Shown one piece after another: positions 2,976 through 19,264 of a stretch of 64,000 nucleotides of DNA (positions within the stretch are counted from its first letter, which is position 1; every line of letters starts with the position of its first letter). Where the stretch lies: positions 434,001 through 498,000 of the forward strand of contig NZ_JACJPL010000026.1 of NCBI RefSeq assembly GCF_014696065.1, written 5' to 3'. The notes under the pieces are model-generated. The model did not search any database, was not told the DNA's origin, and saw only the letters and a program-made list of their open reading frames with translations. Source of the DNA: Leptolyngbya sp. FACHB-261. Lineage in GTDB: Bacteria; Cyanobacteriota; Cyanobacteriia; FACHB-261. The translations under genes were made by a program, and so were the position numbers.

Positions 2976-4208
2976 ATGACAGCCGCTCCTCGAATCCTAA
3001 AATCCGTCCGCTTAGCTTGGCTAGAAGGCATTCGCGGCTTCGCGGTCATCTTGATCCTGCTGTATCACTCTCAACTGCTGTTCACAGACTATGCCTTCAC
3101 GCCCAAACCGACAGGTCTATCTGACAACCTAGAGCAGCTGCGCATGGCCTCAGATTATTTAGGAGCAGGTTTCCACGCTTGGCTGAGTATTCCAGGCTGG
3201 TTCGGTTTTCAGTTTGTTGATGTTTTTGTGTTGATCAGTGGTTTCAGCCTCGCGCTTTCGCTCCAGACGAAGCCCCTGCCGCCCATTGCCTTTCTCAAGC
3301 AACGCCTTATGCGTTTGCTCCGGCCGTTCTGGACCGTGGCTTGGCTTGCCTATCCAATTCTGTGGCTGATTGGCACTCTCACCAATAGCTATAGCCCAGA
3401 TGCCTGGCACAGCTTTGCAGGCATTACTTTTCCATTGAGCACAGATTATCGGGGTAGCTTGCTGCTGCCAACTAGTGGCTCTTGGTGGTTTATGCCTCTA
3501 ATCTTTAGCTTTACCCTCTTGTTTCCCTGGCTCTGGAAGTTGCTACACCGTTGGGGACTCTATAACTTGCTACTGGCCAGCACACTACTCACTCTGGCCT
3601 ATCGGTTGCTAGCAGTTTACTGCTTGGGTGGGCACCCTACTTACGTACTCATAGACACGCCTGCTGCTGAACAACCTTTTCAACTCTTTCTCGCTAAACT
3701 CAGCACCTTTGTCTTGAGCATGACAGTTGCCCATCGCTACTGCCAGGGTAAGGGACCACTCTTCTGGAGCCAACCTCAGGCTTTTGTCGTCGGGTTGGTG
3801 CTATATAGTTTGGGCTTTGTCGGTCAGTTTTCTCGGCTAGGTTGGGTCGTTGCCGAGTTATTACTACCCCTCGGTCTAACTTTGTTGTGTATGGTGGTCA
3901 CCCGCCTGTTATGTAAATGGTCCCCTCTACAACACTTCATGCGTTGGCTAGGGGGACACAGCTATAGTTATTTCTTAATCCACAACTTTGTAGTAGACCG
4001 TACGCTGAACCTAGTTGTCCGTGGTGAACTGGAACTGTACTACCAACTGCTACCTGTAATGGTGCTGGTAACCCTTGCTCTTGCAGTTCTAGCTGATAGG
4101 CTGAAGCCGCTGCTGAAGCGCTCCTCAGTCACCCTGATTCGTCACATTGACAACTATTTTAGTCGTTCCGAAAGCAGCCACTTAGCTTCTAAAACCAGCG
4201 ACTTTTAA
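2976..4208 (+). CDS. Acyltransferase 3 family integral membrane protein
   Basis: A 410-residue polytopic membrane protein of the AT3 family (OafA/NodX type), which moves acyl groups onto extracellular carbohydrates. The N-terminus has the family motif LEGIRGFAVILILLYHS, with the catalytic His in YHS near residue 37, followed by about ten hydrophobic segments. The C-terminal segment contains HSYSYFLIHNFVVDR, a typical late AT3 signature. AGGA lies six bases before the ATG. The 3' end overlaps the convergent STAS gene by 20 bases. The acceptor glycan is unknown. It is 3 kb from the Dlt-like acyl locus, so a shared surface polymer is possible but unproven. Confidence 0.85.
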   Translation: MTAAPRILKSVRLAWLEGIRGFAVILILLYHSQLLFTDYAFTPKPTGLSDNLEQLRMASDYLGAGFHAWLSIPGWFGFQFVDVFVLISGFSLALSLQTKPLPPIAFLKQRLMRLLRPFWTVAWLAYPILWLIGTLTNSYSPDAWHSFAGITFPLSTDYRGSLLLPTSGSWWFMPLIFSFTLLFPWLWKLLHRWGLYNLLLASTLLTLAYRLLAVYCLGGHPTYVLIDTPAAEQPFQLFLAKLSTFVLSMTVAHRYCQGKGPLFWSQPQAFVVGLVLYSLGFVGQFSRLGWVVAELLLPLGLTLLCMVVTRLLCKWSPLQHFMRWLGGHSYSYFLIHNFVVDRTLNLVVRGELELYYQLLPVMVLVTLALAVLADRLKPLLKRSSVTLIRHIDNYFSRSESSHLASKTSDF

Positions 4209-4962: not shown

Positions 4963-7050
4963 ATGCAACGCCCTCTGTGGATCACTGGCCCCAGCCGCAG
5001 CGGCAAGACAGACCGATTGGTTCAGTTTTTTCAGGACCAGCGGCTCTCGTTAACCGCGCGCCAGAGCATCTTGGCCCTCGCGGCTCATCGAGAAAGTCGG
5101 CTCAACCTAGCAGAACGGTTGACAACTGCTACTGACGGACAAGTCACGGTTGCCGACCATACGCCTGTTGGTTTCTTTCAGGCTGAGGTGGTTCTGTTTT
5201 GGCCTCTGCTGGTGCAAAAGCTAGATCTCAAGGCCCAGTTTCCGCTCCCCCTGCATCCTGAAAATGAGCAAGAGCTGGCAACTAGAGTTTGGGCCAAAGG
5301 CTTGGTAGCGCAAGGACCCTTGCGTTTGCCAAACCTGAGTGTAGAGCGTTGTGTTGAACGCCTATTAAGCCTGCTGCAACTGTCGGCCTTTGCGGCAGTG
5401 CCCTTGGCCGACAGCGCGTCGATTCTGGCAACTGGCACCGCAGGGCAAGCGGACTTGTCACCAGAACTATGGGAGCGGGTAGCTCGGGCGCTCGGTCAGT
5501 GGCGGGACTGGTGCTTAGCTCGTGGCCTGCTCACCAACGGCATTGCCACTGAATTGTATTGGCAATATTTGTTGCCTGACGCTAGTTACCAGCAGCAACT
5601 GCTTCGCCGCTACCCTGTGGTTCTAGCCGACGACGTCGACAACTACCCGGCTGTGGCTCGCCAGCTATTTGAGATCATGCTGGAGGGGCGGAGCCGTGCG
5701 GCCTTCAGCTTTAATGTCCATGGTGCAGTGCGCTTGGGCTTAGGCGCAGATCCAGAGTATTTGAGTGACCTGGCAAGCCGTTGTAATGTTGAGCGTTTAG
5801 GCGCCTCGCCAGACCTCTCTCTGTCGGTGGACTTCGGGCCAACCGTCGATTTGATGGTGAGTGATCCCACTGCACCTCTGTCTTTATTACCGGCCCAGTT
5901 TCAAACTATTCAAACCCTCTCACGCTCGACGATGCTGCGCCAGACAGCGGAATGTATCGTGCAAGCTGTACAAGCAGGTGTAGTGCAGCCGCGAGAGATC
6001 GCCATTCTCGGCCCCGGTATTGATGCCATTGGCCGATACGTTCTCACTGAAATTTTGACCCGGGCGGGTATTTCAGTAGAAGTTCTGCATGACCACCGAC
6101 CGCTCAGCCACTTTGCTCCTGTGCGGGCACTATTAACGCTGTGTGCTTTGGTTTACCCTGGCCTGGCTCATCTGGTTGATCGCGATGATGTCGCTCAGAT
6201 GTTAGTGGCCTTAAGCCAACAGCCCAAACAGCCGCATCTGCTCTCGCTCGAACCTGTGATTGATCCGGTGCGTGCTGGTTTACTGGCCGATCACTGTTTT
6301 GATCCGCAGCCAGCGCAGCCTCATCTACTGCTCAGCCAAGCTTACGAACGCTGGGATCGTTTGGGCTACCAGGTTTGCGACTTCTACGATCCCCTCGTGC
6401 AGTGGTTAGACAGCCAGCGGCAACAACAACAGGAGCATTTGTTAGGTAATCCGCCGGTTCTGCTGGACCGGGCGATTCAACGCTTTCTAGAGCCAACTCG
6501 TTTGCCCCTAGAATATAGAACGCTGCTGCGCAAATTTATGGAAACGTCAAGCCACTATTGGCAAGTCGAAGCGCGTTTGAGCCAGGTGGAACCAGAAGCT
6601 CAAGCTACTCATAAGCCCCTGGAAGACTTTATTCAACTCATCCGCAGTGGAGCCATTACTGCAACTCCCTTTCCGGTGCAGCCTTTACAAGCTCAGGCTG
6701 AGGGAGCCGTTACTCTAGCCGCAGTCTTTCAGTATCGAGCAGCTCAACCCTTACATCGCTGGCAGTTCTGGCTAGATTGCGGCTCGCAGTATTGGGGTGA
6801 TGGCGGGGCTGCTGTGCTATTTGGCTACGGTTTATTTCAAAAGCATTGGGACGGGCAACCTTGGACTCCAGCCGATACGGAACAGGCTGAGCAGGCTCGG
6901 TTGCAACGCACCCTTCAGGATTTACTCGGTCGTACGACCGAGCGAGTTTATCTATGCCACAGTGATTTATCCACTAGTGGCCAAGAACAATTTGGGCCTC
7001 TGACCCCACTTGTTGATGCAGTAGCTCCTGTAGAGATGAGTGTTTTATAA
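4963..7050 (+). CDS. Walker-A protein resembling an AddB/RecB-type helicase-nuclease subunit
   Basis: 695 residues. The N-terminus carries a P-loop, GPSRSGKT (residues 9-16), preceded by a beta strand (LWIT), and VVLADDVDNYPAVAR near 208 resembles a Walker B strand followed by a helicase-like acidic loop. Later segments (REIAILGPGIDAIGRYV near 346; ISVEVLHDHRPLSHFAPVRALLTL near 368) have the spacing of the UvrD/AddB second RecA-like domain. No C-terminal PD-(D/E)XK or Fe-S cysteine cluster is evident. I recall cyanobacterial homologues being labelled 'recombinase family protein', which says little. I infer a role in DNA-end processing or repair. AGAG near the ATG is a weak ribosome site. Confidence 0.55.
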   Translation: MQRPLWITGPSRSGKTDRLVQFFQDQRLSLTARQSILALAAHRESRLNLAERLTTATDGQVTVADHTPVGFFQAEVVLFWPLLVQKLDLKAQFPLPLHPENEQELATRVWAKGLVAQGPLRLPNLSVERCVERLLSLLQLSAFAAVPLADSASILATGTAGQADLSPELWERVARALGQWRDWCLARGLLTNGIATELYWQYLLPDASYQQQLLRRYPVVLADDVDNYPAVARQLFEIMLEGRSRAAFSFNVHGAVRLGLGADPEYLSDLASRCNVERLGASPDLSLSVDFGPTVDLMVSDPTAPLSLLPAQFQTIQTLSRSTMLRQTAECIVQAVQAGVVQPREIAILGPGIDAIGRYVLTEILTRAGISVEVLHDHRPLSHFAPVRALLTLCALVYPGLAHLVDRDDVAQMLVALSQQPKQPHLLSLEPVIDPVRAGLLADHCFDPQPAQPHLLLSQAYERWDRLGYQVCDFYDPLVQWLDSQRQQQQEHLLGNPPVLLDRAIQRFLEPTRLPLEYRTLLRKFMETSSHYWQVEARLSQVEPEAQATHKPLEDFIQLIRSGAITATPFPVQPLQAQAEGAVTLAAVFQYRAAQPLHRWQFWLDCGSQYWGDGGAAVLFGYGLFQKHWDGQPWTPADTEQAEQARLQRTLQDLLGRTTERVYLCHSDLSTSGQEQFGPLTPLVDAVAPVEMSVL

Positions 7051-7574
7051 TACAAGTAGGTGTATTTTTAATTACTCTGTCTTGTCGTGTAGATAGGTTC
7101 TATTGCTGCTTATAAAAAAGCAAGCGATAAAGAATTAAATCACAAGCTCTTGTAGCTTTAATCACACGGCAGACTAGTTTTGTTGTGGTTGCCTTTTCTA
7201 GACCTTCACCACAACTTCATAAAGCTCCGACAAAGGCTGTAGAAGCTGGTAGCAATCAAAGCTTTACTGACTAACCTTTCTCAAGATTTAGAGCAAAAAC
7301 CAGAAAGTATATTGTTTTGGTAAAGAGCGTTAAAAGAACTAGAGCAGGCAGATATAAACAAAGGCAACTCGATACAAACAAGAATCACTCCCAGAAGTGA
7401 TTTAAACGTTCTAAAACTAGCTACCCCAGTGATGACTCAAGCTATTTACCCCTAAGGCTATGAGAAGGGGAAGGAGATAATCTGAAGTCATGGTTTGCCT
7501 CTAGCTACCTCATTTTTTCTTCTCAGCGCTATCGCCAAAATTCGACGACGCTGTTCAGGTTATTACAACGAAGC
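7051..7574. other. Intergenic region upstream of the acyl locus
   Basis: This is 524 bases between the P-loop protein and the fatty acyl-AMP ligase, AT-rich compared with its neighbours. It holds one possible broken reading frame (7243-7455). A GC-rich hairpin is not apparent. The last 120 bases are pyrimidine-rich (CTCATTTTTTCTTCTCAG near 7510) and probably include the promoter of the acyl locus, but I could not pick a convincing -35/-10 pair. Confidence 0.4.
7243..7455 (+). pseudogene. Possible remnant of a small gene with an internal stop
   Basis: One frame reads 26 sense codons (LLTNLSQDLEQKPESILFW) to a TAA at 7321-7323, then 43 more (RALKELEQADINKG and on) to a TAA at 7453-7455. A TAG at 7240-7242 closes it on the left. 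The amphipathic, Glu/Lys-rich composition looks protein-like on both sides of the stop, but there is no start codon with a ribosome site. I do not recognise the family; chance is a real alternative. Confidence 0.22.
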
Positions 7575-9371
7575 ATGATGAGAACTACCGATTCTGTAGC
7601 TCCGGAGTCTTTTGCTGTGCAAAATTCTTCGACTCTGGTTGAGCTACTACGCTGGCGAGCTATCCAACAACCCAATCAACGCGCTTATACCTTCCTGGTT
7701 GATGGCAAGACAGAAGGCCCAACCTTGACTTATGCCGAGTTGGACCAGCGAGCTAGGGCGATTGCGGCACTACTTCAAGCGCATCAGGCTCAGGGGGAAC
7801 GAGCGCTACTGTTGTACCCCCAAGGCTTAGACGTTATTGCTGCTTTTTGTGGCTGTTTGTACGCAGGCGTTATTGCGATTCCGGTCCCTCCTCCTGATGC
7901 AGGGCGTCTAAAGCGGACTTTGCCCCGCTTGCGAGCGATCGTGAAGGATGCGCAAGCTTCATTGGTGCTAACTACCGCTCAAATTTTGGAGGTCCTCCAA
8001 GATTCACGGCTTGAGATCCCCGAATTTCAAGCCATGCACTGGTTAGATACGGGTGCTACTGATTTGCAACAAGCGGAGCAGTGGCAAGAGCCAGTGGTTG
8101 ACAGCGATACGTTGGCTTATTTGCAGTACACTTCCGGCTCTACTTCAACACCGAAGGGGGTCATGCTTAGCCATGCCAATCTGATGGGGCATTCGGCTAA
8201 TCTTCAACGAGCTTGTAGCTACACAGCAGACAGCCTTACAGTTACCTGGATGCCCTACTTCCATGACTACGGTTTGGTTGAGGGGCTGATCCAACCCCTG
8301 TATTCTGGTATCCCTTGCGTTGTGATGTCCCCGTTTGCTTTTGTCAAACGGCCGTTTCACTGGTTGCAAGCCATTTCCCGTTATCGGGCTACCCATAGCC
8401 AAGGGCCTAATTTTGCTTACGATTTATGTGTTCGCCGCATTACACCAGAGCAGCGTTCTACTTTGGATTTAAGTAGCTGGCGGGCGGCGGGCAATGCCGC
8501 AGAACCGATCAATCCAGAAGTGATGCAAGGTTTTTTTGAAACTTTTGCGTCCTCTGGCTTTCGCTGGCAAAGCTTTTGTCCTGCGTATGGACTGGCAGAA
8601 GCAACTTTATTAGTTTCCTCAAGTCCAGTTACGGCAGAGCCGGTGGTCTGTACGGTTCAAGCTCACGCCCTGGAACAGGGTCAGGTTCTTGAACTTTCTG
8701 AATCACAAAGAGGACGTGCGATTGCCGGTTGCGGTCGTCTAGTTTGTGAAACCCAAGTTGTGATTGCACATCCAGAGCACTTAACCCGTTGCAAAAATGA
8801 TCAAGTAGGCGAGATTTGGGTTGCAGATCGCAGTGTCGCTCAGGGATATTGGCAGCGCTCAGAAGAAACAGAACGCACCTTTCGAGCCTATCTCGCTGAT
8901 ACAGGTGAAGGCCCCTTTCTCCGAACTGGCGATTTAGGCTTCTTGAAGGATGGTGAATTATTTGTCACGGGACGCATTAAAGATCTAATTATCATTCGAG
9001 GAGCGAATCACTATCCTCAAGATATCGAATGGAGTGTGCAGCAACTACATCCAGCTTTGCGCCCTGATTATGGTGCAGCTTTCTCGATTGAGGCTGCTGG
9101 TGAAGAACGGTTAGTTGTGGTTCAAGAAGTTGAACGACAACAGCAGAATCTAGACATTGATCAAGTCATTGCTGCAATTCGACAAACAATCGCTGAACAG
9201 CACGAGATTCAAGTTTATGCAGTCATTCTTGCTAAACCTGGTACCATCTTGAAAACGTCAAGCGGCAAAATTCAACGCCGTGCTTGTCGAGATAATTTCT
9301 TAGCTGGAAGCCTGAATGCGATAGGTGAATGGAGCGAAGACTCCAAATACGCCACGGCAATTTTGGCTTGA
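7575..9371 (+). CDS. Fatty acyl-AMP ligase (FAAL)
   Basis: A 598-residue ANL-superfamily adenylating enzyme. It shows the P-loop YTSGSTSTPKGVMLSHAN near 180, the substrate-pocket/AMP motif YGLAEATLL near 337, TGDLGFLKDGELFVTGRIKD near 457, IIIRGANHYPQDIE near 477 and the C-terminal lysine motif TSSGKIQRR near 566. The form G-x-NHYPQDIE with a short C-terminal domain is typical of FAALs, which make acyl-adenylates and load acyl carrier proteins rather than CoA. The next genes include a dehydrogenase and a carrier protein, so the acyl-AMP is probably passed to that carrier. Starts at ATGATG (7575 or 7578). First gene of the 13-kb same-strand locus. Confidence 0.9.
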   Translation: MMRTTDSVAPESFAVQNSSTLVELLRWRAIQQPNQRAYTFLVDGKTEGPTLTYAELDQRARAIAALLQAHQAQGERALLLYPQGLDVIAAFCGCLYAGVIAIPVPPPDAGRLKRTLPRLRAIVKDAQASLVLTTAQILEVLQDSRLEIPEFQAMHWLDTGATDLQQAEQWQEPVVDSDTLAYLQYTSGSTSTPKGVMLSHANLMGHSANLQRACSYTADSLTVTWMPYFHDYGLVEGLIQPLYSGIPCVVMSPFAFVKRPFHWLQAISRYRATHSQGPNFAYDLCVRRITPEQRSTLDLSSWRAAGNAAEPINPEVMQGFFETFASSGFRWQSFCPAYGLAEATLLVSSSPVTAEPVVCTVQAHALEQGQVLELSESQRGRAIAGCGRLVCETQVVIAHPEHLTRCKNDQVGEIWVADRSVAQGYWQRSEETERTFRAYLADTGEGPFLRTGDLGFLKDGELFVTGRIKDLIIIRGANHYPQDIEWSVQQLHPALRPDYGAAFSIEAAGEERLVVVQEVERQQQNLDIDQVIAAIRQTIAEQHEIQVYAVILAKPGTILKTSSGKIQRRACRDNFLAGSLNAIGEWSEDSKYATAILA

Positions 9372-9455
9372 GATTATTTAGGGTGCTCTCAGGTTGCTGG
9401 TTGAATATGACGGGCGATGGGGTTTAACCCCTTAAGAAGGGAGTGGAGAATGTAG

Positions 9456-11261
9456 ATGCATCAGCTAGCGCAGTATCAATCGGCTGAAGCGCTTGAGCAA
9501 TATCTGGGCGATCCCTGTGACACTCGCAATCTTCTATCATTTCAGCATTTGATTGAGCTGGATGAGCGGGAAGAATTTCCAGCCGCTGAGGTAGCATCAC
9601 TCTACCGTTGGCAATTGCAGGACTACCACGTGCCAGTGGAGCTGGGAGGCAAATTTCAATCCTATGAGGAATTTGTTGCCCAAGTTCGAGTGCTTTCTCG
9701 GCGGGATCTAACCACGTCGATTACCTTTACCACTCTGTTCTGGTCGGGCTTAGTCTGGATGGCCGGAACAGATGCCCAGAAGCAAAGCCTATCTCAGTTC
9801 ATCCGAGATCAGGATGGAGCTATGTGCTTGGCTTACTCAGAAAAGGCTCATGGCAGCGACTTGTTGGCCAGTGAAGTTCGAGCCGTCAAAGTGCTAGGGG
9901 GCTATCTACTTTCCGGTGAGAAGTGGCCGATCAACCGGGCAACAATTTCGGGCATCACATTTGTTCTGGCGCAAACGGATGAGGCTGCAGGGGCTCGTAG
10001 TCTGTCTCTGTTTATGGTGCGGAAAAGTGAGCTGAATCCTGATAATTATTCAAACCTGCCTAAGATCAAAACCCACGGTATCCGTGGCTCGGACATGAGT
10101 GGCATTCGCTTTGATCATTGTTTTGTCAGTGAAGAAAGCCGCTTAGGGCCAGAAGGCGCTGGTTTAGAACTTGGGCTCAAAGGCTTTCAGGTCACTCGTA
10201 CTCTATGTTCTGCCTTCTCTCTAGGCGCAGCCGATACTGCCCTGCGAACTACACTGAAGTTTGCTCTAAATCGTCAACTTTATGGCAAGACTGTTTTCGA
10301 TCTGCCTCAGCCTCAAAGAACGCTAACTGATGCTTTTTTGGATCTCTTGATCTGCGACTGTGTCACGATTGCTGCAGCTCGGGGTTTCCATGTTGTGCCG
10401 GAGCAATTCAGCGTTTGGTCAGCTGTTGTCAAATATTTTGTGCCCACGACGGCTGAAACGCTGGTTCAGAACTTGTCAGTCGTGATGGGCGCACGCTTCT
10501 ATTTACGAGAAGCTCACGATTGGGGCATCTTTCAAAAGGTCGTCAGGGATAATGCAATCATCAGCGTCTTTGATGGCAGCACAGTCGTCAATTTGCACGC
10601 CCTGATTCTGCAATTGCGTCAACTTGCTAAGTCACGGGCCAGAAGACGGGAGCAGCAGATGATGGCCTTAAACTCACGGCTGTCGGTTATCTGTTCTCTA
10701 ACTCAGCCCCTACCCAAATTCCAGCCCGACAAGCTTGAGCTATTCAGCCGTGGCAACGACGATATTCTGCAAGGTTTGGAACTCGCTCTGGCCCACCTCC
10801 ACGGCTTACAGGATGATGCGAGTATCAATTTAGTTGTTGGCCAAATCACGGCTCTGGCTGAAACCCTGCTAGCGTTGCTCAATGCCCAGGATGAGGCGCT
10901 GCTTCAGTCGTCTTTTGAGCATGGGCATGAGCAATCGCCTGAACTATTTGATCTTGCTAAGCGCTACTGCACTCTCCATGCAGCCGCAGCCTGTATTCAA
11001 CTTTGGCTTCACAACCGAACTGAACTGGGAGAGTTTTTTGCCAGGGGCGAGTGGTTAGTCTTAAGCCTCCATCGGCTTCTGAAAACCATTCATCCAGTTC
11101 AGCAATCAGTGCCACAAGCCTACTATGAGCCAGTTACTCAGCAATTGCTCAAGTTGTATACGGCAGATCAGCTCTTCTCAATCGCTCCATTTCAACTTGC
11201 TCAGTCTCGACCCGTAGAGGATGAAATTCATGCAACTACAGAACTCCAGCTCCAAGCCTAA
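9456..11261 (+). CDS. Acyl-CoA dehydrogenase-like flavoenzyme with extra C-terminal domain
   Basis: 601 residues, against about 380-400 for a simple acyl-CoA dehydrogenase. Residues 1-380 hold the family fold: FAD-binding segments MCLAYSEKAHGSDLLASEV and LSGEKWPINRATISGITFVL, and the C-terminal helical part with NRQLYGKTVFDLP. The site that carries the catalytic Glu in medium-chain enzymes (YEGT) reads FDGST here, giving Asp373. Residues 400-601 form an additional helical region. Placed between a FAAL and an ACP, it probably oxidises an acyl-carrier-bound chain to a 2,3-unsaturated one. GGAG lies upstream of the ATG. Its 3' end overlaps the ACP gene. No ETF gene is nearby. Confidence 0.87.
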   Translation: MHQLAQYQSAEALEQYLGDPCDTRNLLSFQHLIELDEREEFPAAEVASLYRWQLQDYHVPVELGGKFQSYEEFVAQVRVLSRRDLTTSITFTTLFWSGLVWMAGTDAQKQSLSQFIRDQDGAMCLAYSEKAHGSDLLASEVRAVKVLGGYLLSGEKWPINRATISGITFVLAQTDEAAGARSLSLFMVRKSELNPDNYSNLPKIKTHGIRGSDMSGIRFDHCFVSEESRLGPEGAGLELGLKGFQVTRTLCSAFSLGAADTALRTTLKFALNRQLYGKTVFDLPQPQRTLTDAFLDLLICDCVTIAAARGFHVVPEQFSVWSAVVKYFVPTTAETLVQNLSVVMGARFYLREAHDWGIFQKVVRDNAIISVFDGSTVVNLHALILQLRQLAKSRARRREQQMMALNSRLSVICSLTQPLPKFQPDKLELFSRGNDDILQGLELALAHLHGLQDDASINLVVGQITALAETLLALLNAQDEALLQSSFEHGHEQSPELFDLAKRYCTLHAAAACIQLWLHNRTELGEFFARGEWLVLSLHRLLKTIHPVQQSVPQAYYEPVTQQLLKLYTADQLFSIAPFQLAQSRPVEDEIHATTELQLQA

Positions 11262-11643
11262 TCCTGAATTGCAGCCAGCTGATACTGCTACATCCGTCAA
11301 AGCGATTGAGGCCTGGCTGGCCACTAAGCTTGCGAAACAGCTGAGATTGGATGTGAAAACCTTAAGTGTCCATGAGCCATTGACGCGTTATGGTCTCGAC
11401 TCCATCGATGCAGTAACCTTGGTCGGGGATTTAGAAGACTGGCTTGGCCTTGAGTTACCGTCGACTCTGCTATGGGATTATCCAACCATTGAGAAAGCAT
11501 CTCAGTATCTAGTCAAGGACTTTGATATCTCTGCTGCTTTGGCGCCGGGTTCGGAGTCAAATTCTGAGCAAAGCGATGCGCCAGATGCGCCTGCTAAAAC
11601 TCAAGGATGGGGCAATCTCTGGCGTCAAATTAGCGGCAGCTAG
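11230..11643 (+). CDS. Acyl carrier protein
   Basis: About 137 residues. The carrier domain spans roughly residues 20-95 and carries the phosphopantetheine site GLDSIDAVTL, with the Ser codon at 11401-11403, followed by LGLELPSTLLWDYPTIEKAS, the usual helix II-III region of stand-alone and PKS/NRPS-type carriers. A flexible acidic, Ala/Ser-rich tail follows (residues 100-137). GAGG at 11217-11220 is best spaced for the ATG at 11230; an ATG at 11221 sits directly on it. The gene starts inside the end of the dehydrogenase gene in another frame, so the two are probably translationally coupled. It is the likely acceptor for the FAAL. Confidence 0.9.
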   Translation: MQLQNSSSKPNPELQPADTATSVKAIEAWLATKLAKQLRLDVKTLSVHEPLTRYGLDSIDAVTLVGDLEDWLGLELPSTLLWDYPTIEKASQYLVKDFDISAALAPGSESNSEQSDAPDAPAKTQGWGNLWRQISGS

Positions 11644-11718
11644 TTGAGACGCGCGAGGGCTAGCAGGTTGTCCAGGCTAGCATCACTGTCTGTTCGGATT
11701 AACGAGTTTAGTTCTGTC

Positions 11719-11756
11719 CTTTACCCAATTCGAGAAGTTTCTTTGATTGGGTAAAG
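11719..11756 (+). promoter_or_regulatory. Hairpin between ACP and MBOAT genes
   Basis: CTTTACCCAAT (11719-11729) and ATTGGGTAAAG (11746-11756) are perfectly complementary over 11 bp with a 16-base loop, in the 151-base gap between the carrier and MBOAT genes. No T-run follows, so it may be an attenuator, an RNA-processing site or a stabiliser rather than a full terminator. It is the largest gap within the first half of the locus. Confidence 0.45.
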
Positions 11757-11794
11757 CTAATCGCCAATCTCAAGACTGGTGAGGGGAATAAGCA

Positions 11795-13258
11795 TTGAAT
11801 TTCTCTGACTTTTCTTTCTGGTGGGTACTGCTGCTGTTCAGCATTCCATTTTTCACGATTCGCTCCCTGGGCAAGTCGATGAATTTGTGGTGGCCCATTT
11901 TAGATGGCATTGGCCTAATGGCAATGTCGCTAATTCTATTCGTCAACGCTTCTCGCTCTAGCTTCGCGATTTTTATTTTCGAGCTCATTTTCAATTACGC
12001 GATGGTGGAGCTGATGCTCCGCCGTAAGGGGCAGGCAGCTGTGGCAATTGCCACAGCGGTCATCGCGGTTGACATTGCCATTCTTGCTTACTTCAAGTAT
12101 TTAAATTTCTTTGTTGAAGATGTGTTGAGTCTAATGCTGGGTAGCCTCGGTTATGCAGCCCCAACCAAGCTCAATTTGCCTGGGATGTACTCAATTCCTC
12201 CGGGCCTTTCTTTCTACAGCTTTCAAATGGTCGCCTTCGTCGTAGATTCCTTTAGGTCTAGAGATAAAAAAGCGATCGGCTTTGTCGATTACGTCAACTT
12301 TGTGTCGTTTTTTCCTCAAGTTGTTGCTGGGCCTATTGAGCGCCGATCGGATTTCTTTCCACAGATTGAGGCCTTTCGATTTAAATTCTCATGGTCCAAT
12401 CTGGAAGCAGGTTTTTGCTGGCTATCACTGGGCCTGTTCATGAAACTCGTGCTAGCGGACAATTTGGCCCCTTACATTCAGTTGGAGGAAAGCGCTAATG
12501 CCTGGCTCCTTTGGTTCTTCGCCTACTTGTTCACCTTGCGCATCTATTTTGATTTTGCTGGCTACAGTTTCATTGCCCTTGGCTTAGCTCAAATTCTTGG
12601 CATTCGTCTAACTGTCAACTTTCTGGCTCCCTATACGGCACAGAGCATTCAGGAGTTTTGGCGGCGCTGGCACGTAACCTTGAGCACCTGGTTCCGCGAC
12701 TATGTTTTTCTGCCCTTGATGGGTTCCAAAAAGCAATGGGCCCCCTTCTTCCTCTTGGTCACCTTTACGCTCTCTGGTTTCTGGCATGGGGCAGCCTGGA
12801 ATTTTGTGTTGTGGGGTGCTTACCACGGCTTGCTACTCCTGGTTTTGCGTTATGCAGGTCGTCCCTTTCACCGCTTTGTTGGTCAGCATTTGTTCATGCC
12901 TCAATTCCTATCTTGGGCATTAACCTTTGGATCTGTAATTTTAGGCTGTCTGTTCTTCATGGAGAGCGATATTGGGCGTTTGGGTCTCAAGATGCAGACC
13001 TTGCTCAATCCCTTGGCTTACTCTCTTTCCAATGTTTCTCAAGCTTTGAGTTCTTTCAGTGCTAATGAGTTGTTTGCTCTAGCGCTGACCTTAACTCTGG
13101 CAACAACCGTGCTTCTGCTCGAGCATATGGCTGTTTGGCAGAAACGGGATTGTGAATATGCGATCTTGCGCTCTCCATTAATGGCTCGGGCCCTATTTGG
13201 CTTGACCATTCTGTTCGCCGCCAATATTCCCTCCAAATTCATCTATTTTCAGTTCTAA
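11795..13258 (+). CDS. MBOAT-family O-acyltransferase (DltB/AlgI-like)
   Basis: A 487-residue polytopic membrane protein. It has the MBOAT signatures FFPQVVAGPIERRSDFFPQ near 170, FWRRWHVTLSTWFRDYVFLPL near 290, and SGFWHGAAWNFVLWGAYHG, in which His331 is the predicted catalytic histidine. Bacterial members (DltB, AlgI, PatA) transfer an acyl group across the membrane onto extracellular polymers. Start is a TTG with GAGGGG at 11781-11786. Its stop codon shares a base with the next ATG (TAATG), tying it to the SGNH-like partner exactly as dltB/dltD or algI/algJ work in pairs. Upstream ACP and FAAL suggest a fatty-acyl rather than acetyl donor. Confidence 0.9.
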   Translation: MNFSDFSFWWVLLLFSIPFFTIRSLGKSMNLWWPILDGIGLMAMSLILFVNASRSSFAIFIFELIFNYAMVELMLRRKGQAAVAIATAVIAVDIAILAYFKYLNFFVEDVLSLMLGSLGYAAPTKLNLPGMYSIPPGLSFYSFQMVAFVVDSFRSRDKKAIGFVDYVNFVSFFPQVVAGPIERRSDFFPQIEAFRFKFSWSNLEAGFCWLSLGLFMKLVLADNLAPYIQLEESANAWLLWFFAYLFTLRIYFDFAGYSFIALGLAQILGIRLTVNFLAPYTAQSIQEFWRRWHVTLSTWFRDYVFLPLMGSKKQWAPFFLLVTFTLSGFWHGAAWNFVLWGAYHGLLLLVLRYAGRPFHRFVGQHLFMPQFLSWALTFGSVILGCLFFMESDIGRLGLKMQTLLNPLAYSLSNVSQALSSFSANELFALALTLTLATTVLLLEHMAVWQKRDCEYAILRSPLMARALFGLTILFAANIPSKFIYFQF

Positions 13259-14277
13259 TGTCCAGTCTAATCTCCGGCCCTATAAAGCTTGCTAGTTGGT
13301 TTGCCGTTGCAGGTATTGCCTGGTCTGCTGGTTACATCTACAACGTGTACTACGGTGGAGAACTGAGTTGGGTGCGTTCGATGTATCAGCAAAAAGTTGA
13401 GTTGGTTCGCCAGATTCAAGCACCAAGACGATTATTAATCTTGGGTGGTTCTGGCGCACACTTCACCGTCGATGCAAAATTGATGGAGCAAAAACTTAGC
13501 TTCCCAGTTTTTAATTTAGGTCTGGATGGCCCTGTGGGTTTAGATGTTATTTTGGCGACGACTTTAGCCGAAATTCGTCCTGGTGACATTGTGCTTCTAA
13601 TCCCGGAATATCTGATTCTGATGGATGAGGATGGCTTACGCGAACGTTCGGCTTCTTTTGGTGTGGCGATTGGTCGTCCTGGGCTAGGTGATATCCCAAC
13701 GAAGCAGCTTGCCCAAGAAACTATGTTGCTAGGGGTACCCAGTTTAAGGGCGCTAAGCAAATCCACACTAGATGTTTTAGAAAAAGGCAAACTCACTGGT
13801 TACTATTCTGACCCTATTGATACTCATGGTGGTCCAACTGTGCTCAAGCAAAGGGGCGACGCTGACTGGTGGCAGATGCGCATCCAAAAACCAATCTCTA
13901 AGCATGCCGTGCAGCGGATTGCTAGCTTTCAAAATGAGGTAAAAGGTAAGGAAGCAAGTTTAGTTTTAGGTTTGCCGTGGGTGTATGCCAGTCCAGACGA
14001 GGAAACTCTGGATAACATTCGCAAAACAGCAGATGCTCTGGCTGAAATTGCCCCTCTCCTTTACGATCCAGTTTCGTTGAACCTTAAGGCTGATTCCAGC
14101 CTGTTTGGTGATACTCACTACCATCTCAATGCTCAAGCGAGACAGCAGCGCTCACAGGAATTAGTACAGCAACTGAAGCCCTTGCTGGAGAATCAACTGA
14201 AGTCTGCAAAAGTTGCTGGTTGTCAGTCTCAAAGCTCTCTCAATTCCTTCTTGGCTGGCTGTACCCGCAGTCTCTAG
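13258..14277 (+). CDS. Membrane-anchored SGNH-like protein (DltD/AlgJ-type partner)
   Basis: 339 residues. There is one N-terminal hydrophobic segment (about 8-28), then an extracytoplasmic domain. The block I equivalent is LLILGGSGAHFTVDA with Ser65, followed by FPVFNLGLDGPVG, the Asn-Leu-Gly seen in SGNH partners of MBOAT enzymes. The C-terminal block V equivalent is FGDTHYHLNAQA with Asp285 and His287. So a full Ser/Asp/His triad is available. DltD and AlgJ/AlgX proteins with this layout complete acyl transfer or act as esterases outside the membrane. The ATG overlaps the MBOAT stop codon, so the two are translated together. Sequence similarity to DltD itself is too low to claim by eye. 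Confidence 0.75.
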   Translation: MSSLISGPIKLASWFAVAGIAWSAGYIYNVYYGGELSWVRSMYQQKVELVRQIQAPRRLLILGGSGAHFTVDAKLMEQKLSFPVFNLGLDGPVGLDVILATTLAEIRPGDIVLLIPEYLILMDEDGLRERSASFGVAIGRPGLGDIPTKQLAQETMLLGVPSLRALSKSTLDVLEKGKLTGYYSDPIDTHGGPTVLKQRGDADWWQMRIQKPISKHAVQRIASFQNEVKGKEASLVLGLPWVYASPDEETLDNIRKTADALAEIAPLLYDPVSLNLKADSSLFGDTHYHLNAQARQQRSQELVQQLKPLLENQLKSAKVAGCQSQSSLNSFLAGCTRSL

Positions 14278-14342
14278 CGAATGATGTGCAATGACCTGTT
14301 ATAAGCCATTTCGGACATCGCTAACCTTTCAACAATGAAAAG

Positions 14343-15698
14343 ATGTACAACAAGCTAAGCGATGAAAAGCTCCAAGGATTGAGTAACTTTGGTCTAGGTT
14401 TTCCTGAGACTGATCCTTCTGCTACCAGGATTTGTATTCTTGGTGGTGGTTTTGCTGGTTTGTTTACAGCTCTTGATTTTTATAAACGGTATCGCTCCAG
14501 CCATCAGGTTAAAAATTCAAAGCTTCAGTCTTGCCAGATTATTCTGATTGAGCAGCGCGATCATTTTCTGTTCACTCCTCTACTTTATGAGCTGGTCACA
14601 AACGAATTGCAAACCTGGGAAATCGCACCCTCCTATCAGCAACTGTTGGCTCAAACTAGCATTCAGTTTTGTCGCGCAACTGTGGAGGCAGTCAATCTTA
14701 AACAACGTCAGATCCAGCTGCTAAGTGGGGCCTTTCTCTCTTATGACTATTTAGTATTAGCCGGGGGTGGTCAAACCAATCTAGTTGGCTGTCCAGGCGT
14801 AGACGACCATGCTTATCCCTTCCGAACACTTGCCGATGTAGACCGGTTAAAAGAACGCTTACATCACCTAGAACAGTCTGACCGCCGCTTGATCCAAATT
14901 GCCATTGTGGGCGGTGGGCCTAGTGGGGTTGAACTGGCTGGAAAACTGGCTGATCGCCTGAAAGCCCGTGGCCGGATCGATCTGGTTGAGCAGGGGGAGC
15001 AAATTCTCAACGGCTTTACCCCTGCCAGCCGTGCCATGGCTCGCCGCGCTTTAAGCAGTCGGCAGGTGCAGATTTTGACCAAGGCCCGAGTTCTGGCCCT
15101 GGATGCTGACCAGATCTCGTTAGAACTTCAGGGACAGGTGGAATGGCGACCGGTAGATTTAGTGCTGTGGACTGTGGGGAACCGGCTCCCCGCTTGGGTG
15201 GATCAATTGGATTGCCAACATAGCCCGAGGGGCCAGTTGCTCACCACGCCAACCTTGCAATTGTGGGACTATCCCGAGGTCTTGGCGCTTGGAGACTTGG
15301 CCGAGATCCGGGATGAAGGTAAGCCAGTTCCCTCAACGGCTCAAGCTGCCGTTCAACAGGCTAAGTGTGCAGCTCGTAATTTACAGGCTATGCTCAACGG
15401 CAAACGTCAGCGCCGCTTTCAATATCTACATCTGGGTGAAATGCTAACCCTGGGAACTGACGCAGCGGTTGTTTCCAGCTTTGGCTTGACTGTGGGGGGG
15501 GATCTAGCTTGCCTGACTCGGCGCTCCGTCTATCTTCAGCGGCTGCCTACATTCCGCCATCGTCGCCAAGTGCTGTGGCAGTGGCTCATTCGTTGGTGGC
15601 TCAAGTTAATCAGTGGTTGGCGCTGTCAGTTAAAACGAACCACATCTAAACGACAGCAGTATTCATTATCAGATACGCCATTGCGAACTAAGCTCTAA
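14343..15698 (+). CDS. Type 2 NAD(P)H dehydrogenase, NdbB-like
   Basis: A 451-residue two-dinucleotide flavoprotein. The FAD motif ILGGGFAGLFTALDF starts near residue 32, IEQRDHFLFTPLLYELVTNE near 76 is characteristic of the plant NDC1/cyanobacterial NdbB group, and the NAD(P) motif IAIVGGGPSGVELAGKLADR lies near 186. ALGDLAEI near 318 is the second FAD contact. A basic, hydrophobic C-terminus (WQWLIRWWLKLISGW) probably sits on the membrane. In this family NdbB reduces quinones, including demethylphylloquinone in vitamin K1 synthesis. Here it lies inside the acyl locus just before an HTTM protein, a relative of vitamin-K-dependent carboxylase, which suggests local quinol use. Weak ribosome site. 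Confidence 0.85.
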   Translation: MYNKLSDEKLQGLSNFGLGFPETDPSATRICILGGGFAGLFTALDFYKRYRSSHQVKNSKLQSCQIILIEQRDHFLFTPLLYELVTNELQTWEIAPSYQQLLAQTSIQFCRATVEAVNLKQRQIQLLSGAFLSYDYLVLAGGGQTNLVGCPGVDDHAYPFRTLADVDRLKERLHHLEQSDRRLIQIAIVGGGPSGVELAGKLADRLKARGRIDLVEQGEQILNGFTPASRAMARRALSSRQVQILTKARVLALDADQISLELQGQVEWRPVDLVLWTVGNRLPAWVDQLDCQHSPRGQLLTTPTLQLWDYPEVLALGDLAEIRDEGKPVPSTAQAAVQQAKCAARNLQAMLNGKRQRRFQYLHLGEMLTLGTDAAVVSSFGLTVGGDLACLTRRSVYLQRLPTFRHRRQVLWQWLIRWWLKLISGWRCQLKRTTSKRQQYSLSDTPLRTKL

Positions 15699-15732: not shown

Positions 15733-17571
15733 ATGAGTATGACGGTTCATTCACCTAAGAAAAATCTTTTTGCTTCGAAGCTCGGAGAAATATTTAGTTT
15801 AGATTTGCGTTCGCTAGCTCTGTTTCGGATGGGCTTAGCCCTAGTTATTCTTGCTGATTTAGGGTTTCGGGCTAGAAGTTTGACGGCCCACTATTCTGAT
15901 GTGGGAGTGTTGCCACGGACAGCCCTAATTGGGGAGGTGCTAAAACCCTGGTACTGGTCTATTCATCTAATCAGTGGTCAACCCCTGGTTCAGGCCCTAT
16001 TGTTCGGGGTAGCGGGCTTAATTGCCCTGGCTTTGTTGGTGGGTTATCAAACCCGGCTGGCCACTATTGCCTCCTGGGCTCTCGTCGTATCATTACACAA
16101 CCGCAACCCAGCCCTGATCTTTGCAGCTGATGATGTGCTGCGAGCTCTGCTGTTTTGGGCGATGTTTCTGCCATTAGGGGCACGTTATTCGATTGACAGT
16201 GCGCTCAATACCGCAAATCAGAGACAGCTCAATCGTTGGTTATCGGGTGCCACTGTAGCGCTGATCTTTCAGCAGTGTTTTATTTACTGGTTCTCGGCAG
16301 CTTTCAAATCTGAGAGCCCCGTTTGGTTGGATGGCAGCGCTGTTTATTACGCGCTCAGTTACGACCAGTATGTGACCGGGCTAGGTCAGATCCTCTTGGG
16401 TTTTCCACTGCTGCTGAGTTTCTCTACCCTAACTACGTTTGCTTTGGAATGGGTGGGGCCGTTTCTCTTATTCATGCCCGTGCGCACGGACTTCTTTCGC
16501 AGTTGCGCTGTCGTCACGTTTATTCTCTTGCACATTGGCTTTGGCCTAACTCTAAACCTGGGCATTTTTCCGATGCTTAGCGTGTTTAGCTGGCTCGCCT
16601 TTATTCCGAGCAGCGTTTGGGATCGCCTCTCTAAGAGACTCTATACGCCAGAGCGTATAGGGCTGAAGATTTACTATGACGGTGATTGTGGATTCTGCAA
16701 GAAAGTAGTTCACCTGCTACGCACGTTCCTGATCTTGCCTGAAACCCCACTCGAAATTGCTCAGTCAGACCCCAGTATTGAGGCGGATATGCAAGCCTAC
16801 AACTCCTGGGTGGTGGTGGATTGGCAAAATCACAGGCACTTCAAATTCGAAGCTATTGCTTATATTTGTTCTCTGTCGCCTCTGTTCGCTCCTCTCGCTC
16901 ACCTATTGCGCTGGAAGCCTGCGATGGCTGCCGGTACCAGGTTTTACGAAACGATTGCTGTGAATCGCAAAGCAGCCGGTAGATTCACAGCACCCCTCCA
17001 ATTTCGCTCACTTGAAGTTCGTCCTTCAAAGCCGGCTAATCTAGCTGCCTTGTTGCTGCTGGCCTATCTGTTTGTTTGGAATCTCCGCAGCCTTTCCCCC
17101 TCAACTTTCAACCGCAAAGCTCTCAACTCTGTGGATTGGATTGGTCGTCTCCTGAGATTGGATCAAAATTGGAGCATTTTTGCTCCTAGCCCACCCAAAG
17201 ATGACGGCTGGTATGTGATGCCTGCAAAACTGAAGGATGGAACTGAGGTTGATTTGCTGACTAAGAATTCTGCGAGTTGGGACAAACCAAATTCTCAACT
17301 TCGCAGCGAAATCTACCAGAACATGCAATGGCGCACTTACTTGATCAATCTCAATCGGTCAATCGGTGAGAAACTTTATCCTTACTATGCTCAATATCTC
17401 TGTCGCAATTGGAACAGCCAGCATCGAGGCAAGCAGGAAGTTGCAAACCTGGAAATATACTTTATGAGCGAGCGTACTGTTGCACCAGGACAAACACAGA
17501 ACGTTGAGAGAAAGCGCACCTGGCAGCAATCTTGTACCAGTGATTCGATGCCCGATGCTCCTGAGAATTAA
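15733..17571 (+). CDS. HTTM-domain membrane protein fused to a DCC thiol-oxidoreductase domain
   Basis: 612 residues. Residues 15-310 form several membrane segments of the HTTM type (related to vitamin-K-dependent gamma-carboxylase), beginning SLDLRSLALFRMGLALVIL. Residues 313-425 are a DCC/DUF393 domain with YYDGDCGFCKK, giving the redox pair Cys319/Cys322. A further hydrophobic segment near 435-450 is followed by a soluble C-terminal part (460-612) with NWSIFAPSPP and DGWYVMPAKL, seen in HTTM proteins. Both domain types are known, separately and fused; the exact reaction is not. It follows a quinone reductase gene by 34 bases. GGAG lies 13 bases before the ATG. Confidence 0.8.
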   Translation: MSMTVHSPKKNLFASKLGEIFSLDLRSLALFRMGLALVILADLGFRARSLTAHYSDVGVLPRTALIGEVLKPWYWSIHLISGQPLVQALLFGVAGLIALALLVGYQTRLATIASWALVVSLHNRNPALIFAADDVLRALLFWAMFLPLGARYSIDSALNTANQRQLNRWLSGATVALIFQQCFIYWFSAAFKSESPVWLDGSAVYYALSYDQYVTGLGQILLGFPLLLSFSTLTTFALEWVGPFLLFMPVRTDFFRSCAVVTFILLHIGFGLTLNLGIFPMLSVFSWLAFIPSSVWDRLSKRLYTPERIGLKIYYDGDCGFCKKVVHLLRTFLILPETPLEIAQSDPSIEADMQAYNSWVVVDWQNHRHFKFEAIAYICSLSPLFAPLAHLLRWKPAMAAGTRFYETIAVNRKAAGRFTAPLQFRSLEVRPSKPANLAALLLLAYLFVWNLRSLSPSTFNRKALNSVDWIGRLLRLDQNWSIFAPSPPKDDGWYVMPAKLKDGTEVDLLTKNSASWDKPNSQLRSEIYQNMQWRTYLINLNRSIGEKLYPYYAQYLCRNWNSQHRGKQEVANLEIYFMSERTVAPGQTQNVERKRTWQQSCTSDSMPDAPEN

Positions 17572-17619
17572 ATCAGTTCGCTAATAATCTGGGTTCACGC
17601 TGTTCATTATTCTTTGACC

Positions 17620-19191
17620 ATGAATAACTTGAAACCTCGAATGGAGGCTTATCCGAAAAGCTTTCTGGAATCGATCAAGCTGTCTGAGGTCAGCACCTAT
17701 CTCAAGGTATTTATATTTTTCTGGTCGTTGTTTGCCCTAACCAATAGTGGCTTCGACAATTCGGAGGGTGGTTTTCACTATCAAGTTGCAGAACACATTA
17801 TTGAAACTGGACAGCTAGGCTTCGAAACTTCGCAGCCCGGTATTTTTACGGTTGCTCCTAACGGGAGAACTTACGCCTCCCATGAAATTGGCAATACGCT
17901 TTTCTTTCTGCCAATCGCCTGGCTGAACCTCACGCTGCAAAAGCTGTGGTTTGGCTCTCTAAGCTCGGAGCAACTGGAAATTGCCAAAGAGTTTGTCCGT
18001 TCGTTTCAGCCTAGTTTTTACTCGGCAATCACCCTGGCTGCTTTCTTTGGGATCTTGCGGCTTGGCTTTGCTCAAAAACGAATTCCTGCTCTGCTGGCAA
18101 CTTCAGGTCTAGCACTCACAACCTTTTTCTGGACCCACACTCGAGAGTCATTCGATGGCGTTTTATGCTCAACCTTGTTGACAATATCTTTTCTATTTCT
18201 GTTGCGATTCAAGCAACAAAAAAGTCGGCTTGACCTGATTATCGCTTTTGCAAGCTTGGGATTTGGTTTTATTACCAGAATCTCGATGGTGCTGGCGATC
18301 GTAGTTTCTATCGGCTACTTAGTGAGCATCAGTAGGCCTTATGCCCAAACTCTAGTTAGAAACCTCGGGCTGGCACTGTTGACGCTTGTACCCTTCGTCG
18401 TCTGGCAATCTTGGTATAACCAACTGAGAACTGGCATTTTTTATCTTTCGCCTGTGCAAACAGATGCCAAGTATCGATTTGCCAATGCCCTGGATGGCAA
18501 TCTTCTAGTGGGACTTCAAGGTATCCTGGCCAGCCCTGGCAAAAGTATTTTCATCTACGCGCCTTTGCTGATTCTCTCTGTACTTCTGTTCCGGAAGTTT
18601 TGGAAGAATCATCCTAAGGAAGCCCTTTACATTCTGGTACTCAGTTTGGCCTGGTTGCTCCTGCATGCGAGGCTCAGAAGCTGGTACGGTTCCTGGGGCT
18701 GGGGGCCTCGTCACTTCATCACTATCTTGCCCATTCTGTTTATTCCGTTTGCAGCCAACATTGAATTAGTATTACGAAAAGCCTACTTAAAAGTGTTAGC
18801 GCTACTTCTAGGCAGCCTTGGCTTTGTGCTTGCTCTCGCTTCGATGATTTCCGATTGGCACTTCAGAATGGTGCTTGCTGATGGCAAGACCTTAAGCGAT
18901 GAGTTTTTCGTCTGGAGTCTGCGTCATAGCCAACCTGTGGATATGCTGACTGGCGTGCTCAAGAATTTGATCACTGTTTTTAAGTTAGTCATGCACTCGC
19001 CCTCAGTTCAGAATCAAAATCTTTGGTTCTTAAACTCTGGTCTCAAGGAATACGGTAGTTTTACGGTCAACTTTTGGCCTAACAATCTGATTTTTGCGGG
19101 GGTTGCCTGGTATTGGATTGTTCCTCCCGTTGTACTTTTGATTGTTTTGATGTTCTCCTCGCTGCGAAGCGTTTTAGCTTCTAAAGCCTAA
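17620..19191 (+). CDS. GT-C-like integral membrane protein
   Basis: About 523 residues with roughly ten hydrophobic segments. The first long loop has the acidic motif FDNSEGGFHYQVAEHIIETG followed by SHEIGNTLFFLPIAWL, the layout of polyprenyl-phosphate-sugar-dependent GT-C glycosyltransferases (GT39/ArnT-like), where an acidic residue of that loop binds metal or substrate. A later SWGWGPRHFITILPILF is also typical. The ATG at 17620 is taken; a TTG two codons upstream (17614) is in frame and neither has a good ribosome site. It is followed by a second protein of similar layout. It may make or glycosylate the acceptor that is acylated by the MBOAT pair; this is inference. Confidence 0.65.
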   Translation: MNNLKPRMEAYPKSFLESIKLSEVSTYLKVFIFFWSLFALTNSGFDNSEGGFHYQVAEHIIETGQLGFETSQPGIFTVAPNGRTYASHEIGNTLFFLPIAWLNLTLQKLWFGSLSSEQLEIAKEFVRSFQPSFYSAITLAAFFGILRLGFAQKRIPALLATSGLALTTFFWTHTRESFDGVLCSTLLTISFLFLLRFKQQKSRLDLIIAFASLGFGFITRISMVLAIVVSIGYLVSISRPYAQTLVRNLGLALLTLVPFVVWQSWYNQLRTGIFYLSPVQTDAKYRFANALDGNLLVGLQGILASPGKSIFIYAPLLILSVLLFRKFWKNHPKEALYILVLSLAWLLLHARLRSWYGSWGWGPRHFITILPILFIPFAANIELVLRKAYLKVLALLLGSLGFVLALASMISDWHFRMVLADGKTLSDEFFVWSLRHSQPVDMLTGVLKNLITVFKLVMHSPSVQNQNLWFLNSGLKEYGSFTVNFWPNNLIFAGVAWYWIVPPVVLLIVLMFSSLRSVLASKA

Positions 19192-19264
19192 GCCGAAGGC
19201 ATCAGTTTCTGGTGCCTTGCGAATTGAGAGACTTTTATTAAAATCATCAAAAATGGAGGGAGAC

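Follow-up and report, generated by a model that had tools for sequence, protein, structure and literature searches.

A candidate carrier-protein-fed fatty-acylation module with a fused acyl-shuttle motif in Leptolyngbya and other cyanobacteria

Bacterial Dlt and PatA systems pass acyl groups from an MBOAT-family acyltransferase to an SGNH-fold transferase. The tyrosine of an FxYxxF motif ferries the acyl group between the two; the motif lies either on the separate protein DltX or at the MBOAT C-terminus, and Tyr and His mutants of PatA lose auto-acetylation (PMC12148441). Dlt systems combine the amino acid ligase DltA, the dedicated carrier DltC, the MBOAT DltB, the SGNH-fold protein DltD and the motif protein DltX, and use D-alanine. 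PatA-PatB, AlgI-AlgJ and WssH-WssI pair an MBOAT that has a fused C-terminal FxYxxF motif with a membrane-anchored SGNH transferase, and they use acetyl-CoA without a carrier (PMC12148441). Here we consider a window of 64,000 nucleotides (nt) from the cyanobacterium Leptolyngbya sp. FACHB-261 (contig NZ_JACJPL010000026.1, positions 434,001 to 498,000), in which genes for a fatty acyl-AMP ligase (FAAL), an acyl-CoA dehydrogenase-like flavoprotein (ACAD), an acyl carrier protein (ACP), an MBOAT and a predicted SGNH protein stand together. We read this gene set, with a probability of about 0.7, as a carrier-protein-fed, membrane-spanning fatty-acylation system.

Gene content and shuttle features of the module

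An open reading frame (ORF) check of the window places the FAAL, ACAD, ACP, MBOAT and SGNH genes in this order on the + strand at 7575-14277, with the ACAD and ACP genes overlapping by 41 nt and the MBOAT and SGNH genes by 1 nt (Table 1). An earlier note on this DNA had named the same five families, order, strand and overlaps, all of which are confirmed. Its five-gene limits hold for that interval, but the conserved unit reaches ~17571 and takes in genes for an NDH-2-like flavoprotein and an HTTM/DCC membrane protein, making seven; the note had overlooked both of these co-conserved downstream genes as well as the shuttle motif at the MBOAT C-terminus. The same gene order is found in many cyanobacterial loci and is therefore not a chance arrangement.

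The MBOAT carries a signature of acyl shuttling. It matches the MBOAT family (1.6e-29) and the DltB model TIGR04091 (1.2e-51, below that model's own cut-off), and its profile finds DltB as the closest solved structure (6.4e-40), with HHAT at 5.8e-6. The protein begins at a TTG codon, and its MNFSDFSFWW start is common to orthologues. His331, in the motif GFWHGA, is invariant among orthologues and corresponds to the catalytic MBOAT histidine. The hydrophobic stretches that follow the DltB-like core match the description of fused-motif MBOATs, and the protein ends in FIYFQF; every intact orthologue has FIYF[EQS]F as its last six residues. A six-frame scan of the window finds the pattern FxYxxF-stop at this C-terminus and nowhere else, and across 1.1 Mb of related loci the pattern lies nearly always on long, MBOAT-sized ORFs. 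A DltX-like small ORF with the shuttle motif was sought in the six frames of the window and not found.

Searches of the SGNH protein against Pfam and the PDB gave no Pfam match and no useful sequence identity, and fold comparison was therefore used. Its AlphaFold model (pLDDT 86.7) has one long N-terminal helix (residues 6-32), in agreement with the single-span SGNH-like protein described before, and in Foldseek and VIA comparisons the predicted fold resembles those of SGNH esterases and of PatB, an O-acetyltransferase, with a Z score of 11.6 over 170 residues at 4.0 Å for Campylobacter jejuni PatB. DltD (7dxm) is among the Foldseek matches, a likeness in fold without a sequence match; its absence among the 50 VIA matches listed is no evidence against that likeness. 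Ser65 lies in GGSGAH (nt 13450-13452) and a DTHYH motif starts at nt 14110. Ser65 and Asp285 are invariant in 22 SGNH sequences, and the candidate histidine is His287 or His289. The module thus has the tested features of an MBOAT-SGNH shuttle, namely a C-terminal FxYxxF, the MBOAT His, and the SGNH Ser with Asp/His.

On the supply side, the top-ranked matches of the ligase are FAAL-type subfamily models and solved FAALs, not CoA-ligases, which points to a FAAL; its best solved relatives are the FAAL-type domain of a polyketide synthase (PKS; 1e-175) and Legionella FAAL 3kxw (1e-131). ACP Ser61 (nt 11401-11403), in GLDSI, is the predicted phosphopantetheine site. GLDSID with the carrier serine is conserved among the ACPs of module orthologues, and the genome holds two phosphopantetheinyl transferase genes whose products could activate the ACP.

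The module resembles Dlt in having an adenylating enzyme, a dedicated carrier, a DltB-type MBOAT, an SGNH-fold transferase and an FxYxxF motif. In contrast to Dlt, it has a FAAL, which is not a DltA-type D-alanine:carrier ligase, where Dlt has DltA; its substrate would be a fatty acid instead of D-alanine; its motif is fused to the MBOAT rather than carried on DltX; its ACP fills the role of DltC without being DltC itself; and it adds ACAD, NDH-2-like and gamma-carboxylase-fold partners. Because DltA and DltX are absent and the motif is fused to the MBOAT, this is not a Dlt system proper; we also know of no teichoic acids made by cyanobacteria. A fused motif and a membrane-anchored transferase are shared with PatA-PatB, AlgI-AlgJ and WssH-WssI, from which the module differs by co-inheriting an ACP and a FAAL. 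Judged by its sequences, the module combines the carrier charging of Dlt with a fused shuttle of the PatA type.

Co-inheritance and proposed mechanism

Orthologues were called at strict thresholds in a sample of 386 cyanobacterial genomes. Those of ACAD, MBOAT, SGNH and FAAL occur in the identical 18 genomes, from 12 genera; the concern raised in the earlier note, that the five genes might not be conserved together in relatives, was checked in this way and is not borne out for these four. The chance of identical 18-genome sets is 2.7e-31, or 1e-17 by genus, values that ignore ancestry and give an order of magnitude only. At a loose cut-off, the ACAD search adds a 49% relative in another context (G229), a decayed copy in G385 and distant ACADs, and the SGNH search adds a decayed copy in G385. 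Co-inheritance is not mere linkage because the genes are kept together in Microcystis and relatives even though they are unlinked: Microcystis G312 carries the module at four separate loci (ACAD-ACP; FAAL; MBOAT-SGNH-NDH2; HTTM), G105 and G143 have module genes at three loci, Okeania and one Crocosphaera hold the SGNH gene elsewhere, and ACAD-ACP-MBOAT remain adjacent in Crocosphaera-like genomes. Among the genomes of one genus (g7), G191 carries the set and G019, G024 and G042 do not, which indicates that it is gained or lost as a set. In G385 (locus L080) frameshifts and stop codons have broken up the whole operon, an instance of its genes decaying jointly. Mirror-tree correlations are high (0.92-0.97) but carry no weight here, since the species phylogeny could by itself produce them. 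An Okeania locus (L041, 14431-15351) has a sulfotransferase gene between the MBOAT and NDH-2-like genes, in the place of the SGNH gene. In Crocosphaera watsonii WH 8501, in-frame stops interrupt the SGNH gene (L110) but not the ACAD gene (L058), and this strain may be losing the pathway.

From the gene set, the motif, the catalytic residues, the predicted SGNH and HTTM folds and the co-inheritance, we infer the following reactions. The FAAL would activate a free fatty acid as acyl-AMP and load it on the small ACP, as its family membership implies. The ACAD-like flavoprotein may tailor the acyl chain on the ACP, or proofread or guard it, and this step is uncertain. The MBOAT would take the acyl group from acyl-ACP on the cytoplasmic side and, through His331, place it on its own Tyr484, which would lie on the outer side of the membrane in the FIYFQF tail. 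From Tyr484 the SGNH protein, itself anchored in the membrane, would move it to Ser65 and hand it on to an extracytoplasmic acceptor, for which a glycan or glycolipid is the likeliest candidate. A Dlt-like mechanism of this kind, with a carrier-loaded acyl group, an MBOAT and SGNH transfer outside the membrane, is well supported by the FxYxxF motif, the conserved catalytic residues and the identical distribution in 18 of 386 genomes. The earlier proposal of a functional analogue of Dlt keeps its carrier, MBOAT and SGNH logic on the same grounds and loses its desaturation step, which is discussed below.

Several points weigh against a carrier-fed export system. Co-occurrence counts ignore shared ancestry, the ACP-to-MBOAT transfer is itself our supposition, and the fused-motif MBOATs studied so far use acyl-CoA, which is why such systems have been described without a carrier (PMC12148441). 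FAAL-ACAD-ACP triads also feed other machinery, standing with PKS genes (L065), a nonribosomal peptide synthetase (NRPS; L112) or an alpha-oxoamine synthase with a reductase and a hydroxylase (L079), and a further product of the triad is conceivable. It could then be argued that the triad makes a soluble acyl-carrier product, such as a small lipid or lipopeptide, and that the MBOAT and SGNH proteins form an independent O-acetylation pair adjacent by chance; MBOAT-SGNH pairs using acyl-CoA donors are common, and many of these genomes have a second MBOAT, ending in FLYFQF, with a DUF1574 protein downstream. We consider this improbable because the orthologous triad, MBOAT and SGNH protein are found in the identical 18 genomes even when unlinked, the ACAD-ACP-MBOAT adjacency is kept in Crocosphaera-like genomes, and no PKS, NRPS or condensing enzyme lies beside the triad in the operons listed.

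Some of these relatives deserve description in their own right. In locus L079 (G229, 5101-15110), two FAALs, an ACAD and an ACP lie beside a short-chain dehydrogenase/reductase, a BioF/serine palmitoyltransferase-like alpha-oxoamine synthase and a fatty acid hydroxylase, which together resemble a cyanobacterial, carrier-dependent pathway of the sphingolipid type. Locus L065 (1510-15102), from a Pyrinomonadaceae metagenome-assembled genome (Acidobacteriota bin), has FAAL-ACAD-ACP directly upstream of modular PKS genes, with an ACAD that is 49% identical. The second MBOAT and the DUF1574 protein follow the HTTM gene directly in L063 (14666-17389), and also in L033, L041, L054 and L101, and may add another acylation pair to the module. 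A separate candidate for envelope acylation in the window is an acyltransferase-3 (OafA-type) gene at 2976-4208, upstream of the module by a few kb; it was not seen with the module in other genomes.

Table 1. Features of the module and its downstream neighbours (window positions)
Feature	Position	Strand	Description
FAAL	7575-9371	+	598 aa, stand-alone fatty acyl-AMP ligase; AMP-binding 9e-66
ACAD	9456-11261	+	601 aa, acyl-CoA dehydrogenase-like flavoprotein with C-terminal extension
ACP	11221-11643	+	140 aa, stand-alone carrier protein; PP-binding 2.8e-16
MBOAT acyltransferase	11795-13258	+	487 aa, DltB-like core and two extra C-terminal hydrophobic stretches
Acyl-shuttle hexapeptide FIYFQF, MBOAT C-terminus	13238-13255	+	Tyr484 at nt 13244-13246
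SGNH-fold extracytoplasmic acyltransferase (predicted)	13258-14277	+	339 aa, a single membrane helix at the N-terminus
NDH-2-like NAD(P)H:quinone oxidoreductase-type flavoprotein	14343-15698	+	451 aa; Pyr_redox_2 5.2e-37
HTTM/DCC membrane protein, vitamin K gamma-carboxylase fold (predicted)	15733-17571	+	612 aa; AlphaFold model, DCC1-like 1e-9
Two putative GT-C glycosyltransferases	17614-19191, 19217-21001	+	PMT_2 7.1e-7; LA_3751-family 1.2e-116

The dehydrogenase-like protein

The nearest studied relative of the supply triad is Acinetobacter A1S_0112-0119, which produces acinetin 505 and has a FAAL, an ACAD and a stand-alone ACP in the same order (identity 37-48%); that triad feeds an NRPS, whereas the triad of the module would feed the MBOAT-SGNH pair. 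ACAD domains in the window protein score 9.5e-14 and 2.9e-12, and PDB ACADs match down to 1.3e-25. Asp373 (nt 10572-10574) occupies the position of the catalytic Glu (MCAD Glu376). Aspartate is found there in 47/47 homologues, which include members in PKS and other contexts, and likewise in the Acinetobacter relative. Electron transfer flavoprotein (ETF; PF01012), to which such enzymes usually pass their electrons, was not found in the 17 module genomes searched; among 14 control genomes, 10 gave a match. For acinetin 505, the published work reports no evidence of an unsaturated acyl chain (PMC5376624). Taken together, these results do not support the claim of the earlier note that the fatty acid is desaturated on the carrier. 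Dehydrogenation with another electron acceptor is possible, and we do not assert it. A tentative variant, compatible with fatty-acyl export and to which we give somewhat less than even odds, is that the ACAD is a genuine acyl-ACP alpha,beta-dehydrogenase, so that the exported chain is 2-enoyl or, when hydrated, 3-hydroxy. The Glu-to-Asp change, the missing ETF and the lack of observed unsaturation in acinetin 505 argue against it; membership of the ACAD domain families, strict association with FAAL and ACP, and retention of an acidic residue at the base position throughout argue for it, as does the hydroxylated acyl chain of acinetin 505, which dehydrogenation and hydration could produce.

Possible acceptor and putative quinone-linked partners

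Neighbouring genes suggest a glycan or glycolipid acceptor. Both in the window and at loci L076, L097 and L104, the module has GT-C glycosyltransferases, which use polyprenyl-phosphate sugars, as neighbours; a GT-C homologue adjoins SGNH-HTTM in L097, and one adjoins an SGNH copy in L104. In Microcystis, dTDP-rhamnose precursor genes lie near the FAAL gene. The pair downstream of the module in the window is not a fixed part of it, and possibly makes the acceptor. The "glycan or lipid" acceptor proposed before is suggested by these neighbours only. A variant of the fatty-acylation reading, which we regard as credible without favouring it, takes the acceptor to be not a surface polysaccharide but a protein, or a lipid such as a carotenoid glycoside or a glycolipid. 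The same GT-C neighbours fit this variant, as does an HTTM partner whose fold is related to a protein-modifying enzyme; the closest characterised MBOAT-SGNH pairs act on polymers and rhamnose-precursor genes occur near the Microcystis FAAL gene, and neither point against it is decisive.

Most operons run on into the NDH-2-like flavoprotein and a ~600-residue HTTM/DCC membrane protein. The NDH-2-like gene comes after the SGNH or MBOAT gene in most operons, and its orthologue, plus paralogues, is present in module genomes; the HTTM gene is present in all 18, with more distant copies in other genomes. The AlphaFold model of the HTTM/DCC protein (pLDDT 85.7) has a predicted vitamin K-dependent gamma-carboxylase (GGCX) fold across residues 11-600: its top 16 PDB matches are all GGCX (Z 15.4-23.0; next match 7.2), with ~380 residues aligned at 5.7-5.9 Å root-mean-square deviation and 16% identity. 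This likeness comes from fold comparison only, since the profile of the protein finds no PDB chain by sequence. The HTTM Pfam model PF05090 is reached by 3/25 homologues (best 1.3e-10), and the window protein itself scores no match to it. It differs from GGCX by an inserted DCC1-like thioredoxin domain (CxxC at nt 16687-16698; GFCKK kept in all aligned module members) and by its place in an acyl-transfer operon. Lys192 (nt 16306-16308) is invariant (25/25); it could not be aligned with the GGCX catalytic lysine (Lys217/218), and their equivalence is unproved. Two tandem HTTM relatives occur without acylation genes in L103 (8307-12268) of G321, a 2.3 Mb genome from a distant family of the phylum.

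Among the quinones that cyanobacteria make is phylloquinone, whose precursor is a substrate of one NDH-2-type enzyme. The NDH-2-like quinone reductase and the GGCX-fold protein probably work in the same pathway, oxidising its product or the acceptor in a quinone-linked reaction. A more specific idea, speculative and rather unlikely, is that the fatty acyl group exported through acyl-Tyr, or its acceptor, is then modified by vitamin K-type hydroquinone chemistry, in which the NDH-2-like enzyme would reduce phylloquinone, the GGCX-fold protein would use it and the fused CxxC domain would recycle it; the outcome would be a so far undescribed surface lipid or glycan, either carboxylated or oxidised.

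Open-access literature searches on HTTM/DCC and cyanobacterial MBOAT proteins found nothing on this system, and no open-access paper was found that treats both FAAL and MBOAT. The exact seven-gene combination appears, as far as could be found, not to have been described before. If our reading is correct, the acyl-tyrosine shuttle would extend from acetate and D-alanine to fatty acids, and a fused-motif MBOAT could receive acyl groups from a charged carrier protein of its own. This would also give a bacterial protein of predicted vitamin K carboxylase fold its place in a defined, testable pathway. Bloom-forming Microcystis and Anabaena are among the ecologically important cyanobacteria in which the module would then offer genetic access to an acylated surface molecule.

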